Shown: positions 43,583-48,620 of the stretch, one piece after another
How the letters are laid out: the number at the start of each line of letters is the position of its first letter
Numbering within the stretch: position 1 is the stretch's first letter
Assembly: GCF_001632775.1 (NCBI RefSeq)
Contig: NZ_CP015249.1
Span: forward strand, 476,686-540,685
DNA length: 64,000 bases
Direction: 5' to 3'
Origin: Dokdonella koreensis DS-123
GTDB lineage: Bacteria; Pseudomonadota; Gammaproteobacteria; Xanthomonadales; Rhodanobacteraceae
Translations under genes and position numbers: made by a program
The notes under the pieces: model-generated
Databases searched by the model: none
Seen by the model: the letters and a program-made list of their open reading frames with translations, nothing else
Told to the model about the DNA's origin: nothing

Positions 43583-46297
43583 ATGAAATCGATGAGGCAA
43601 GCCCGCCGGTACGGGGTTCGTGGTGCCATTCTCCTGGTCTGGTTCAGCGTCGCGGCCGCGCCGTCCGGAGCGGTCCTGGCCGCCAGCGGGTCGGTGCCGT
43701 TCGCGATCGACCAGCTGGAGAACCAGAAGATCGTCGCCAGCGACGGCAGCGAGCTTCAGCGCTTCGGCGAATCGGTGGCGCTGGCGGGTGACACGGCCAT
43801 GGTCGGGACCAACGACACCGTGACGGGACGCAGCGCGGTCTACGTCTTCCGGCGGTCGGCCGGCAGCTGGACCGAGGTGCAGAAGCTCCAGGCCTCGGAC
43901 GGTGCGGCCGGCGACCAGGCCCGGTTCGGTGCTTCGATCGCGCTCGACGGCACGACCGCGCTGATCGGCGCGGACAACGCGACGGTCGGCGGCAGCGCCG
44001 GCCAGGGCGCGGTCTACGTCTTCACCGCCAGCGGCGGGCACTGGACCCAGGTCGCCAAGCTCACGGCGGCGGACGGTGCGGCGGGCGACGCCTTCGGCAA
44101 CGCGGTGGCGCTGTCGGGCGGGGCGGCGCTGATCGGCGCCCACAAGGCCCAGACCAACGGCCATGCGCGCGGCGCGGCGTACCTGTTCACCGGAGCGGGC
44201 GGAAGCTGGTCGCAGACGCAGAAGATCCGCGGCGTGGACACGCGCAACGGTGACGCCTTCGGCTGGCGCGTGGCCTTCGCCGAGGACAGCATCATCGTCA
44301 GCGCGCAACTGGCCTTCATGGACTTCCCGGGCGCGCTGTACTTCTTCAAGCCCAGCGATACGGGCTGGGTGCAGAAGCAGAAGGTGATCGGCGAGCTGTA
44401 CTCGAACCTGGGGCAGTCGCTGGCGGCCAATGGCAACCGGCTCGTCGCCGGCGCGCCCACGCTCGGCACGGAAGGCGTCATCTACGTCTACACGCAGATC
44501 GACGGCGTCTGGCGCCGCTCCCACACGATCGCCTCGCCCGAGGGTGAGGAATTCGCCAGCTTCGGCTACTCGGTCGGTATCACCGACACCGCGATCGTCG
44601 CCAGCGCCACGGCGGCCAACGTCAACGGCCAGTCATGGGCCGGTGCGGGCTACGTCTTCACCGAAGCGAACCAGGCCTGGCGCTACGACCAGAAGCTGAT
44701 CGCCAGCGACGCGACCTCGAACGACTCGCTCGGCACGACGGCGGCCATCGACGGCACGACCGTGCTGCTCGCCTCGGGCGTCGCCAGCCCCGGCGGCCAG
44801 TTCCTGCAGGGCGCCGGCTATTTCTTCACGGCCCTGACCGGCACCCGCCAGCCGGCCGCGACGGTCGCGCCCGACCCGTTGGCGACGGCCGTGACCGAAG
44901 GCGCCTCGCGCGCGCTGGCGCTGACCGTCACCAATACCGGCAGCGCGACCCTGGACTACAGCGTTGCGGAAGGCGGCTGCGAACGGCCGGGCGACATCGC
45001 CTGGCTGACGCTGGCCGCGACCTCGGGCAGCCTCGCGCCCGGCCGCGCCGGCCAGGTGGCGGTCCTCGCCGATGCGGCCGCGCTGGGCCAGGGCCTGCAC
45101 ACGGCCACGCTGTGCGTGCTGACCAACGACCCCGCACGCGCGACGATCGACGTGCCGGTCGAGCTGACCGTGACGCCGCCGGACGCGCCGACGCCGGCGA
45201 TCCAGGTGACGCCGGTCAGCCTCGACTTCACCGTAGCCAGCGGTGCTTCCGCGTCCCGGCCGCTGACGATCGCCAATGGTGGCGGCGCCGACCTGGACTA
45301 CAGCCTGGACCAGCATGCCGCCACGGCGCTCCCGCCGAGCTATGCCGCCGCCCGCCTGGCAGCGGCGCAGGTCGCCACCGGCGAGCGGCCGAGCCTGCAC
45401 CGCGCCGTGCGCGTCGCGTCGATTCCCGCTGCGGGCGTTCCTGCAGTCCTCGGTGACTGGGCGATCTCGCAGATGGCGGACAACACGCCGGGCGACGAGG
45501 GACTGGCCTGCGGCGTGGTGGGCAAGAACACGGCCGACAACAGCTGGTGGCGGCGGTTCTACTTCGGCGAGCACCCGCAGGTCGGCCGGCGTGCCGGCAT
45601 CACCAGCGTGACCGTCTCGTCCGGCAGCATGGGCCCCAATGGCCTGCCGATCACGATCAACCTGTACACGATCGCGCATTCGGTCCCGGCCGACACGATC
45701 CCGACCAGCGCGTTGACCCTGATCGGGACCGGCAGCGGCACGATCGACAGCGGCCTGGTGTCGGTGACGATCCCGGTGTCCGGCACGATCGATGACACGG
45801 CGGCGCTGGACCTGGTGGTCGAATACCACACGCCGGGTATCGGCAACTGGCTGGGCCTGTTCTTCCCCGGCGCCAATGCGACGCCCGAGACGCACCCGAC
45901 CTTCATGTCCTCGGTGGCCTGCGAGCTCGAAGAGCCGATCGATGCGGCCAATCTGGGCCTTCCCAACTTCCATCTGACGATGATCGTCAACCTCGGCGAC
46001 GTCGTGCCGCCCGGCTGCCAGCAGGCCAGCCAGATCCCGTGGCTGAGCCAGACGCCGGCAAGTGGCCGGGTCGCCCCCGGCGCCAGTGCCGAGGTGACGG
46101 TCACCGCCAACGCGGCGGGCCTGGCGGCCGGTGCGTATGCAGCGAACCTCTGCGTCAACAGCAACGATCCGGCCAACGCGCAGGTCGCCGTTCCGGTCAG
46201 CCTGGTGGTGGAACCGGCCACGCTGAGCGATGACCTGTTCTGCGATGGATTCGACGCGCAGGGGAGCGGCTGTCGCCCCCTCGCGAACGATCGGTGA
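43583..46297 (+). CDS. Secreted FG-GAP repeat protein with repeat-cassette C-terminus
   Basis: 904 residues. A signal peptide (about 1-34) is followed by about seven FG-GAP-type repeats (residues 45-420; each like DGSELQRFGESVALAGDTAMVG...VYVFRR), likely a beta-propeller as in integrin alpha chains. Two BACON/ASH-like domains then flank an uncharacterised module of about 170 residues (NSWWRRFYFGEHP through LTMIVNL). The module and the following BACON-like domain (PWLSQTPASGRVAPG) recur in the beta-helix protein at 48790-53241. Near the C-terminus is DDLFCDGFD, a motif shared with three other secreted proteins here. AAGG lies 8 nt before the ATG. Probably adhesive or matrix-like; no enzyme motif seen. 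Confidence 0.82.
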   Translation: MKSMRQARRYGVRGAILLVWFSVAAAPSGAVLAASGSVPFAIDQLENQKIVASDGSELQRFGESVALAGDTAMVGTNDTVTGRSAVYVFRRSAGSWTEVQKLQASDGAAGDQARFGASIALDGTTALIGADNATVGGSAGQGAVYVFTASGGHWTQVAKLTAADGAAGDAFGNAVALSGGAALIGAHKAQTNGHARGAAYLFTGAGGSWSQTQKIRGVDTRNGDAFGWRVAFAEDSIIVSAQLAFMDFPGALYFFKPSDTGWVQKQKVIGELYSNLGQSLAANGNRLVAGAPTLGTEGVIYVYTQIDGVWRRSHTIASPEGEEFASFGYSVGITDTAIVASATAANVNGQSWAGAGYVFTEANQAWRYDQKLIASDATSNDSLGTTAAIDGTTVLLASGVASPGGQFLQGAGYFFTALTGTRQPAATVAPDPLATAVTEGASRALALTVTNTGSATLDYSVAEGGCERPGDIAWLTLAATSGSLAPGRAGQVAVLADAAALGQGLHTATLCVLTNDPARATIDVPVELTVTPPDAPTPAIQVTPVSLDFTVASGASASRPLTIANGGGADLDYSLDQHAATALPPSYAAARLAAAQVATGERPSLHRAVRVASIPAAGVPAVLGDWAISQMADNTPGDEGLACGVVGKNTADNSWWRRFYFGEHPQVGRRAGITSVTVSSGSMGPNGLPITINLYTIAHSVPADTIPTSALTLIGTGSGTIDSGLVSVTIPVSGTIDDTAALDLVVEYHTPGIGNWLGLFFPGANATPETHPTFMSSVACELEEPIDAANLGLPNFHLTMIVNLGDVVPPGCQQASQIPWLSQTPASGRVAPGASAEVTVTANAAGLAAGAYAANLCVNSNDPANAQVAVPVSLVVEPATLSDDLFCDGFDAQGSGCRPLANDR

Positions 46298-46318
46298 CGG
46301 TACTCGCGATCATCGGCG

Positions 46319-46348
46319 CTCCTTCCCGTGCGTGTGCGCGGGAAGGAG
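46319..46348 (+). terminator. Hairpin after the FG-GAP gene
   Basis: Perfect 10-bp inverted repeat (CTCCTTCCCG at 46319-46328, CGGGAAGGAG at 46339-46348) with a 10-nt loop, 21 nt after the stop. No U-tract, but position and stability fit a terminator. Confidence 0.5.
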
Positions 46349-46417
46349 TCTGCGAAACACAAGGTTCTTCACCCGTTCGCGGGAAACAATCGGCTGCCGT
46401 TTTCGTCGCTGTCGGTG

Positions 46418-46735
46418 CTGCTCTTGCTCTTGCTCTCGCTGTTGGCGCCTAAAGCGAGCCGAGCATCGCAGGCCGGCCAGGCCGCAGAGCTGCCCCGTGT
46501 CTGAGCGAAGCGAGTTGGGGCAGCGTGCCTGGCTGGCCGAGAAGCGCAGGGGACCGGCGCGGCGCAGCCGTGCCGGCTCGCGCCGGCGACCACGGTTTTG
46601 GTTACTTTTGCCAAGACAAAGAATTTCCTGGAGAAATTCTTGACGTCGCGCAGCGACGGCCCGAAGGGCGGCGGCCAGGGATGGCTGCCGCAAAAGTGAC
46701 CCGCGCGCGCAGCGTGCGGAAGCTGTTGCTCTCAG
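46418..46735 (+). repeat. Structured intergenic element, copy 1 (possible ncRNA)
   Basis: About 320 nt, related base for base to the inverted copy at 46776-47114. It begins with degenerate GCTCTT hexamers. Helix A: GGCCGGCCAGG (46471-46481) with CCTGGCTGGCC (46528-46538). Inside it, helix B: GCTGCCCC (46489-46496) with GGGGCAGC (46517-46524), with a 20-nt loop identical in both copies. Then CCGGCGCG/CGCGCCGG. Then closing helix C: GTTACTTTTG (46601-46610) with CAAAAGTGAC (46691-46700), enclosing four hairpins at 46619-46641, 46644-46658, 46659-46669 and 46670-46689. Helices are conserved by compensatory changes in copy 2. ORFs crossing it are not credible genes. Confidence 0.85.
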
Positions 46736-46775
46736 CTTGCGCCGTGGCTTTTTCGATGAGATCACAGGCGAGAAA

Positions 46776-47114
46776 AGAGCAACATCCAGAGCTTTCGTCC
46801 ACTGCGCGGCCGAGTCCCTTTTGCGGCAGCCATCCCTGGCCGCCGCCCTCCGGGCCATCGCTGACGCGATGTCAAAAATGTCTCCCGGACATTTTTTGAC
46901 GGGCCAAAAGGAACCAAAACCCCTCTGCCCGGCGCAAGCCGATCCGGCTGCGCCGGACCGCTCCCCTGCGCTTCTCAGACGACGAGGCACGGCGCCCCAA
47001 CTCGCTTCGCTCAGACACGGGGCGCCTCTGCGGCCTCGTCGCCCTGCGATGCTCGGCTTGCTTTAGGGCGAAAAAGCCAAGAGCCAAAGCCAAAGCCAAA
47101 GCCAAAGCCAAAGC
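46776..47114 (-). repeat. Structured intergenic element, copy 2 (possible ncRNA)
   Basis: Inverted partner of copy 1, read on the minus strand from the GCTTTG hexamers downward. Helix A: CGACGAGG (46980-46987) with CCTCGTCG (47034-47041). Helix B: GGCGCCCC (46991-46998) with GGGGCGCC (47019-47026). Closing helix C: plus-strand GTCCCTTTTG (46814-46823) with CAAAAGGAAC (46905-46914), enclosing hairpins at 46825-46844, 46845-46855, 46856-46871 and 46874-46896. In helices A, B, C and two hairpins the sequence differs from copy 1 yet pairing is kept. The two copies face each other across about 40 nt and could also form one large cruciform. Confidence 0.85.
47083..47112. repeat. Five tandem copies of the hexamer GCCAAA
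   Basis: Five perfect GCCAAA units (GCTTTG-phase on the minus strand) with a degenerate unit just outside. It forms the outer end of structured element copy 2; copy 1 has a degraded version of the tract at 46418-46446. Confidence 0.9.
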
Positions 47115-47171
47115 AGGGGCAGGGGCTGAAGCGGTCCGCCTGCCCTCGACGGCGCGTCACGGTCGTGGCGG

Positions 47172-48620
47172 TCAGAACGTGGACAGTCCGGTGGCTTCGC
47201 CGAAGCGGTAGAGCAGGCGGCGCCAGGTCGAGTCGTCGGCAAAGGCGGCGTAGGGCAGGCTGACGCGATGGCCGGCGGCATTGGTCCAGCTGTCCTCGAA
47301 ATATGCAGCGGCGTGCTGCAGGGCCGGTTCGCCGGCGTCGCCGAGCAGGCGCACATCGGTTTCGAGGTTGTAGTCGTCGAGGTTGCGGCGGGTGTAGTTG
47401 GCCGAGCCGAGGATCAGCTCGCCGCGGCCGTCGCCCCGCGTGTGCAGCAGCAGCTTGGCATGGCATTGCTCGCCGTGCGTGTCGCACCAGCGGACCGGTA
47501 CGCCGGCGGCGTGCAGCTCGGCGGCGACCTGGCGATTGGGAATGCCGTTCTTCTCGCGGCCGAAGGCGTCGCGGTTCGGATCGAGCAGCACGCGCAGGGC
47601 GACGCCCCGGCGGTGCGCGGCAAGCGCGGCGCGCACCAGGCCGCGATGCGCGAAATAGAACACGGCGATGTCGATGCGGTCGCCGCGGGCGGCCGTGGTG
47701 AGGCTGGCGAGCAGCGCGTCGCGGATGCGGCGCTCGGTCAGCACCTGGACCTGCGTCGACGTGGCGTCGATGGGATCGGCCGGCGGCACGGCCGGCAGCG
47801 GCAGCGCGAGTCCGGCCTGCTCGAGCAGCGGCCGCTCGCTGTGCAGCAGGTCGAGCGCGGCGGCGCCGCCGAAGCGCAGGGCGACATTGCCGTGGGCGCT
47901 GCTGCCGTCGTGCGGATTGGCCGAGGTGACCAGTGCGGTCCAGCCGGCGCCTTCGTCCACGACCAGGGTCTTGCGGTGGTTGGCGCGGAAGTTCAGCAGG
48001 GCCAGGTAGCTGCGCAGGCTGACGTGGCCGGGCCCGAACGGATTGGCCAGCCAGCCGCCGTCCGGGTCATTGCCCAGGGCGGCGCAGCACAGGTGCCACA
48101 GCCCGCTCCACAGCGGATTGGATGCGCGCAGACGGCGCAGGTCGGTGATCGCCACGTGCACGCCGGCCGCTTCGAGTGCGTCCAGCTGCGGTGCGCGCAG
48201 GCCGCCATAGACGGTGTTGACCGGGTCGGTAACGACGACGATGCGCAGCGCAGGCACTTCGCGCTGGCGGCGGATCAGCACGTCGGCCAGCTGCGAGCTC
48301 AGCGGCCGGTAGGCGGGACCGTCGGCGCCGGTGAACGCATTGAACAGGAACATGTCCACCACGATCAGCTGGCGGGCCTGCGCGATCAGGGCGAAGGCCT
48401 CGTCGAAGATCGCCTGCTCGCTGCGGCGCACGCCGTGCAGGTCGAGATAGGTCCGGTCGGCCAGGAAACGTATGTTGGTCGCCGGCCGCAGCGGGCCGGC
48501 CAGGGCGAGGCCATCGGGGAGCGGCTTGCCGGCCTGCCAGGCCGCCGAGCCGATCCAGGCGGCCAGCACCACGGCGAAGGCGAGGCGCAGGCGGCGGCGG
48601 AACGGCGAGGCGGCGGACAT
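47172..48620 (-). CDS. Phospholipase D-like protein, membrane-anchored or secreted
   Basis: 482 residues. An N-terminal hydrophobic segment (about residues 10-30) acts as anchor or signal. Two PLD-type catalytic motifs follow: NHRKTLVVDE (H215, K217) with a downstream SANPHDGS, and QCHAKLLLHTRGDG (H387, K389) with GSANYTRRNLDDYN. The layout resembles cardiolipin synthases and PLD-like phosphatidyltransferases or phosphodiesterases; the true substrate is unknown. GGGAG lies 5 nt before the ATG at 48620. The gene is on the same strand as the beta-helix gene, 169 nt downstream of it, and ends 57 nt from structured element copy 2. Confidence 0.85.
   Translation of the reverse strand: MSAASPFRRRLRLAFAVVLAAWIGSAAWQAGKPLPDGLALAGPLRPATNIRFLADRTYLDLHGVRRSEQAIFDEAFALIAQARQLIVVDMFLFNAFTGADGPAYRPLSSQLADVLIRRQREVPALRIVVVTDPVNTVYGGLRAPQLDALEAAGVHVAITDLRRLRASNPLWSGLWHLCCAALGNDPDGGWLANPFGPGHVSLRSYLALLNFRANHRKTLVVDEGAGWTALVTSANPHDGSSAHGNVALRFGGAAALDLLHSERPLLEQAGLALPLPAVPPADPIDATSTQVQVLTERRIRDALLASLTTAARGDRIDIAVFYFAHRGLVRAALAAHRRGVALRVLLDPNRDAFGREKNGIPNRQVAAELHAAGVPVRWCDTHGEQCHAKLLLHTRGDGRGELILGSANYTRRNLDDYNLETDVRLLGDAGEPALQHAAAYFEDSWTNAAGHRVSLPYAAFADDSTWRRLLYRFGEATGLSTF

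Follow-up and report, generated by a model that had tools for sequence, protein, structure and literature searches.

The element described here was analyzed in a stretch of 64,000 nucleotides of the Dokdonella koreensis DS-123 genome (the window; coordinates are those of the window unless given as genome positions). It is located between two convergent genes and comprises two inverted arms, each of which contains a smaller structured module. The individual features, with scores from the two covariance models R1 and R2 introduced below, are as follows.

46363 to 47140 (no strand): entire element, with an approximate right boundary; the convergent genes on either side end at 46297 (+) and 47172 (-)
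46363 to 46383 (+): left terminal repeat GGTTCTTCACCCGTTCGCGGG, a pattern match with 2 mismatches, at genome position 523048
46418 to 46448 (+): left tri/hexanucleotide tract (GCTCTT-like), which varies between copies in a copy alignment that leaves out five interrupted or truncated copies
46451 to 46610 (+): left outer arm, A-type (TTTTGGTTACTTTTG), from alignment A5 of 39 arms
46471 to 46538 (+): helix A (46471-46482 with 46527-46538) around helix B (46489-46496 with 46517-46524), from pair counts
46554 to 46576 (+): third hairpin within the outer arm, where 10 of 39 arms, all C-type, lack a block of 27 nt
46617 to 46695 (+): inner four-hairpin RtT-like module of the left arm; R1 91.4 bits, R2 match 46609-46698, E 8.5e-20
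46696 to 46818 (no strand): central spacer between the two modules
46819 to 46898 (-): inner four-hairpin RtT-like module of the right arm; R1 95.4 bits, R2 match 46816-46906, E 1.8e-19
46905 to 47064 (-): right outer arm, C-type (TTTTGGTTCCTTTTG), from the arm alignment
47074 to 47113 (-): right (CAAAGC)n tract

One repeated unit with two arms

The long inverted structured arms of the original prediction were recovered. In the window, 46448-46650 and 46865-47067 (203 nt) were 82% complementary, and a second inverted pair, 46651-46724 with 46790-46863 (74 nt), was 86% complementary. The single-strand fold of 46363-47140 reached -552.9 kcal/mol, as compared with -344.2 kcal/mol (sd 5.7) for 20 shuffled sequences (z -36.9), and the outer helices that had been listed were found. 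The G+C content of the element was 64.7% versus 72.6% for the window, and no terminator was found inside the element by a simple scan of 46200-47300. The start of the feature had been placed at 46418; the unit begins 55 nt earlier, at 46363.

A search of the D. koreensis genome (4,446,619 bases, one contig) in which 40 of 207 first-look candidates were scored gave at least 87 matches to 46418-47114, which when grouped by hand corresponded to at least 26 loci that carry an imperfect palindrome of approximately 0.7-0.8 kb or fragments of this palindrome. Nine other full-length units were 86-92% identical to the window unit from end to end, whereas the two arms of the window unit were 79% identical to each other and the opposite arms of the nine other units matched the window at 73-77%; shorter arm pieces gave better opposite-arm identity, up to 92%. 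As identity between same arms exceeded identity between opposite arms, the arms were already different before the unit multiplied. What had been described as two copies facing each other is therefore the pair of arms of one repeated unit. Of 41 TTTTGGTTMCTTTTG sites in the genome (one mismatch or none), 40 were inside these loci, and none was found with the reversed control. Gene neighbors of 26 copies, taken from a simple ORF caller that was also used for the standalone modules below, were convergent at 15 copies, both on the plus strand at seven, both on the minus strand at three and divergent at one.

Compensatory base changes had also been proposed, and for the outer arms this was borne out in part. 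Among 39 arms from the genome, 97.4% of cells were paired and 10 of 29 pairs had changed on both sides, but further pair types were within the range of shuffles (127 of 500 shuffles) and pairs changed on both sides were barely above it (19 of 500). Since the arms fall into two classes and these pair statistics are close to shuffles, the outer-arm changes represent few events.

Terminal repeats, target sites and insertion sequences

Many copies start with GGTTCTTCGCCCAT..GCGGG and finish with its complement, both outside the limits first given to the feature. With up to 3 mismatches this terminal-repeat pattern occurred 22 times in the genome (reversed control, once): 15 occurrences were at the ends of listed copies, one was in a separate remnant and six were elsewhere. 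The remnant (L096, 1441-1521) is end-like, with its terminal repeat at genome position 1481293, approximately 3.8 kb from a truncated copy at 1477360. The copies carry terminal inverted repeats that resemble those of some ISL3-family elements, and the window copy shows the left one only; the best right-hand candidate there scored 34, a value reached by 36 of 300 shuffles, and as a consequence no target duplication is visible at this copy.

Target sites were tabulated for 12 of the 26 copies, those with both end scores of at least 20, except that 1386874 (20 and 18) was also included. Nine of the 12 had a run of the same kind on both flanks (A/A or T/T, at least three nucleotides long, at any position within the 14-nt flanks), such as A7/A9, T8/T6 and A6/A6. 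These nine pairs of runs may represent 8-bp A/T-rich duplications such as those seen with ISL3 ends (below), but the length of a duplication cannot be fixed within a homopolymer. The summed length of direct repeats was 41, versus 17.8 when right flanks were shuffled among copies, and 11 of 5000 shuffles were as high; the strict test of 11 copies, without 1386874, gave 35 versus 14.7 (13 of 5000). A direct repeat was absent in four of the 12 copies tabulated, and the left end at 3796806 was probably misplaced by the scan. Several left flanks, read directly, consisted of a hairpin followed by a T-run, that is, of a terminator. Flank runs of the same kind speak against two separate convergent terminators, from which a T-run on one flank and an A-run on the opposite flank should result. 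When two flanking genes were searched in 10 same-genus genomes, including that of D. koreensis, to look for empty sites of the element, gene order beyond the query gene differed.

Comparable ends were observed at some ISL3 insertion sequences of the same bacterial family. Well-matched GGTTCTTC end pairs were present at four of 30 ISL3 loci (L114, L116, L119 and L137), where they were 1309-1315 bp apart around the transposase match, shared the first eight bases of the element at both ends and had A/T-rich flanks. Duplications of 8 bp, also A/T-rich, were found at L114 and L116, and T7 was present on both sides of L119. The same-genus locus L110 had the ends GGGTCTTC/GGCTCATC with the 8-bp duplication AATTTTAG. 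The other 26 loci had no well-matched GGTTCTTC pair, with poor pairs at L125 (11/24) and L136 (16/24), the latter with one such end, GGTTCTTCACCCATTACCGGGGAA. An automatic inverted-repeat search around the 30 loci recovered few ends, and since the targeted scan looked for the GGTTCTTC start, this end evidence is biased towards it.

No ISL3 transposase was found in the D. koreensis genome by PF01610 profile search, and no transposase gene was found inside the element, where none of six ORFs had a Pfam family above cut-off. The single PF01610 hit (25.7 bits, cut-off 23) was rejected as a resident ISL3 transposase, being the tail of a fatty-acid desaturase. The C-terminal part of this desaturase (L085, 1483-2778, minus strand; hit at 3934715-3935065) scored 24.8-25.7 bits to DDE_Tnp_ISL3, and weak hits of similar extent to this domain were seen in many genomes of the family. 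Strong PF01610 hits were present in the same-genus genomes G018 and G022.

Several copies were themselves associated with other insertion sequences. At L042 (1771539-1772801), L048 (3113273-3114535) and L035 (approximately 1241651-1241913) the right arm carried the same IS481-like sequence, each time at the same GACGGGC site; this sequence has a 403-aa open frame with an integrase core and IS481 zipper, and is present only as a fragment in L035. One such sequence at the same spot in three copies indicates that the element itself is a landing site. A further copy (L031, approximately 582481-583755) was interrupted by an insertion with a 319-aa frame carrying an integrase core and HTH_21, which we read as IS3-like, and a sequence similar to this insertion adjoins another copy (L041, next to 1477487).

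It may be argued that the outer element is no transposon but a set of repeats at terminators that multiplied through recombination or gene conversion, in which paired changes arose from hairpin-templated repair and not from selection. The two arm classes with few independent outer-arm changes, the end tracts that vary between copies, the location of 15 of 26 copies between convergent genes and the ability of hairpin-templated repair to create paired changes are all compatible with this. We nevertheless regard it as unlikely, given terminal repeats kept at 15 ends, A/A or T/T flank runs and ISL3-like ends.

The inner module and RtT RNA

Each arm of the element contains a four-hairpin module of approximately 80 nt. 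Covariance model R1, built from 28 sequences with those of the window among them, identified at least 29 module copies in the D. koreensis genome (150 of 8533 candidates scored), all within the 26 element loci. When 233 family genomes were searched at shallow depth, with 2 DNA candidates scored per genome, at least 52, that of D. koreensis included, gave some match; beyond D. koreensis, the inner 80 nt or so accounted for the strongest matches, and the remainder were short stretches. Across the gamma-proteobacteria, with 12 candidates scored per genome, R1 matched at least 100 of 369 genomes (own genome included) and at least 86 of 272 genera. As few candidates were scored per genome, these multi-genome counts are lower bounds. 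Searches of phages and plasmids gave no match to the module or to the element. One IMG/VR viral contig carried an RtT-like module (L177, 9729-9811, minus strand), and genomes of one genus (L058, L059, L062 and L065) shared an intergenic multi-repeat region in which modules were mixed with GCGGCCAAGGATGGCCGCCCGTTTGATCTT units.

In an alignment of 54 matches (53 distinct), which was fitted to the model and so favors structure, all five covariation measures were above 500 of 500 shuffles and above all slid versions, and 169 cells had changed on both sides versus 64.6 in shuffles. Helices 1 and 2 were paired in 98.6 and 98.8% of cells, and helices 3, 4 and 5 in 61.8, 54.8 and 50.0%. Strong covariation is a property of the inner module across genera, while that of the outer arms rests on few events.

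In related genera the module was found standing alone beside terminators. Of 20 standalone copies tested, 14 directly followed a terminator-like hairpin and T-run, a combination which was present at 9 of 1064 random positions in the same loci. Within the arms of the D. koreensis elements, the module starts directly after TTTTG and ends in TTTG, and both filled and empty sites were observed: among arms that matched the pattern, 13 left arms were filled and seven empty, and 12 right arms were filled and three empty. The seven left empty sites were identical. Two of the right empty sites were distinguished from the third by an additional A and one base substitution (TTTTGAATGGG versus TTTTGACGGG), with one further base different in one of these two. 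A Rhodanobacter record (L173) had tandem module copies joined at TTTTTTG. The empty sites could represent precise losses or gene conversion and not insertions.

RtT repeats are poorly understood sequences located beside tRNA genes in many gamma-proteobacteria, and their role is unsettled. RtT RNA (RF00391; in E. coli, rttR beside tyrV/tyrT) resembles the module in its order of hairpin, hairpin, CCCGAAGGGC hairpin and hairpin, often repeated beside a tRNA gene. A second model, R2, was built from 26 of 29 distant loci, none of them in the family of the window. R2 found both window modules, at the E-values listed above, and three rtT repeats of E. coli K-12 on the annotated rttR strand (E 1.6e-6, 2.8e-6 and 2.1e-5); all these E-values are rough. 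Since the R2 loci were found with R1, which holds window sequences, the window matches are expected, and E. coli rtT is the sole outside test. Up to E 10, the E. coli stretch was not matched by R1 alone, and the window was not matched by RF00391; on 12 scanned distant loci, three scored 33.7-40.2 with RF00391, below the cut-off of 45. No Rfam family reached its cut-off in the scanned stretches.

A tRNA, tmRNA or 5S gene (5S scanned in 12 distant loci) was located within 700 nt of the module at 18 of the 29 distant loci. At 15 of these 18 the first module listed shared the strand of this gene, as did 25 of 29 modules when all were counted. In the nearest same-genus genome, as judged by a ychF-like gene (90%), a tRNA-Tyr gene was followed by four RtT-like repeats (L229, 682-1251, minus strand) next to that ychF-like gene, which parallels the layout of the E. 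coli rtT locus. At L201 the module is adjacent to a tRNA-Arg gene, and the edge of the module is spanned by another, weak tRNA match (33.6 bits), which gives the impression that the 3' end of a tRNA was copied or split close to the T-loop. ARAGORN detected no tRNA gene in 12 D. koreensis stretches other than that of the window, and a tRNA or tmRNA gene at one of 22 related-genus loci (L074). The typical setting of RtT RNA, in which repeats adjoin a tRNA gene and include copies of the tRNA 3' end, was thus not seen in the 12 stretches. The E. coli repeats differ in having no GGA in the loops discussed below, and the window copies differ in being located in a transposable element and not beside a tRNA gene. 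Although the Rfam threshold was not reached, the R2 homology to E. coli rtT together with the L229 arrangement places the module with RtT RNA, an assignment made on homology of sequence and predicted structure.

These results bear on three points of the original prediction. An undescribed RNA had been considered; no Rfam family was recovered at its cut-off, but R2 connects the inner module with rtT/RttR of E. coli and RF00391. Similar intergenic blocks had been mentioned for Xanthomonas-like genomes, which was not reproduced for the outer arms, the best matches outside D. koreensis in the 233 family genomes (a shallow search confined to this family) being to the inner module. A covariance-model search, as had been suggested, and a shuffle test of covariation gave a clear outcome for this module, in at least 100 of 369 genomes and above all 500 shuffles, whereas the outer arms remained near shuffles.

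Origin and possible function

It is probable that the feature, as a member of a repeat family with one-unit structure, ISL3-like ends, A/T flank runs and a homologous, covarying module at exactly filled and empty sites, is a copy of a non-autonomous, gene-free, MITE-like ISL3-type element targeted to the A/T tracts of terminators, with a module of the RtT family nested in each arm. According to this reading, an ISL3 transposase would have moved the large element, whose body is a long imperfect palindrome with the smaller RtT-family unit of approximately 80 nt in the hairpin of each arm. The element would insert at intrinsic terminators, within their A/T tract, and such insertion would lead to accumulation at gene ends, often between convergent genes. 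The small module, which lies exactly behind TTTTG and is present or absent without a scar, may have moved by itself.

The element resembles ISL3 insertion sequences (PF01610) and MITEs in its GGTTCTTC.. terminal repeats and A/T-rich targets and in having no internal transposase gene. Its size of approximately 0.8 kb is large for a MITE, and its assignment to ISL3 is through its ends. In an excerpt from an IS survey (PMC9208149), ISL3 elements were over-represented between genes of the same orientation and not between convergent genes, a pattern which does not match the convergent excess observed here. Among the literature matches listed, titles and the beginnings of abstracts included no report of an ISL3-type MITE in this group or of a gamma-wide RtT family; absence of such reports is not claimed.

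As to function, GGA was present in the first loop of 52 and the last loop of 50 of the 54 aligned sequences, with CANGGANG in 36 of 54 and a variable base before GGA. CsrA proteins prefer ANGGA in hairpin loops, as stated in an excerpt of PMC7366521, and GGA in two loops suggests possible CsrA binding. The module might then work as RNA, as a putative CsrA/RsmA-binding, sponge-like structure with two GGA loops that is produced when transcription reads through from a tRNA gene or a gene end, and that the transposable element has spread. The conserved GGA fits the ANGGA preference, and the tRNA, tmRNA or 5S genes near 18 of 29 distant loci, mostly on the same strand, would fit such read-through. 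We consider this doubtful, however, as GGA is missing from these loops in E. coli rtT, tRNA or tmRNA genes adjoin only one of 22 related-genus loci, and, of 16 related-genus standalone copies examined, nine of the 14 with both neighbors called were antisense to both. Part of the loop conservation also reflects selection of the sequences, which were gathered by similarity, and it may equally result from hairpin-DNA recognition by whatever moves the module. RsmW (RF02809) and sX7 (RF02226) share similar GGA loops and gave weak matches, far below cut-off (RsmW in the window 29.5 of 52 bits; sX7 19.9 and 17.1 of 55 bits). Homology to RsmW, suggested by one sub-threshold hit, was rejected because in 14 genomes the RsmW matches and the listed module matches were at different places. 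A broader proposal, that RtT is a gamma-proteobacteria-wide, self-spreading module inserted behind TTTTG at terminators and hairpins, a mobile CsrA-type sponge carried to 26 loci by a terminator-seeking element, appears to us quite unlikely.

Movement of a REP-type element by a resident REP-associated transposase (Y1_Tnp) was judged improbable. The D. koreensis genome has two Y1_Tnp genes, and a TTTTG-flanked, orientation-specific and tandem-prone module recalls the behavior of REP/IS200-type units; however, other, AACGGGGTCAG-like repeats were read directly around both genes, and none of 29 module matches was near them. A RAYT link was rejected after copies flanking a Y1_Tnp gene were looked for in this genome and not found. 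The two Y1_Tnp genes (L083 and L084, 1426018-1428470) form a neighboring pair among the AACGGGGTCAG-like repeats, possibly a REP system of another kind. As with REP/BIME sequences, the element is intergenic and palindromic, has facing hairpin pairs and serves as a landing site for other insertion sequences; it differs from them in hairpin module and target, and in having no link to the resident Y1_Tnp genes. A hidden pair of small protein-coding genes is scarcely credible: the element overlaps several ORFs of 79-226 aa, but the six tested had no Pfam family above cut-off, blocks of 27 nt and approximately 75 nt are present in some arms and lacking in others, and compensating changes occur often. 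The original view of a mobile repeat shaped by structure and not by protein was supported, on the one hand by 26 dispersed loci, terminal repeats like those of some ISL3-family elements, matching A/T runs and exactly filled or empty module sites, and on the other by covariation and the absence of a Pfam family above cut-off in the six overlapping ORFs.

Read as a non-autonomous ISL3-type element, the feature would join three subjects that are usually treated separately: a transposable element with a preference for terminators, a nested structured module whose sites are exactly filled or empty, and RtT. With a broad covariance model and many copies at hand, the questions of what moves RtT and whether its RNA binds CsrA are directly testable.
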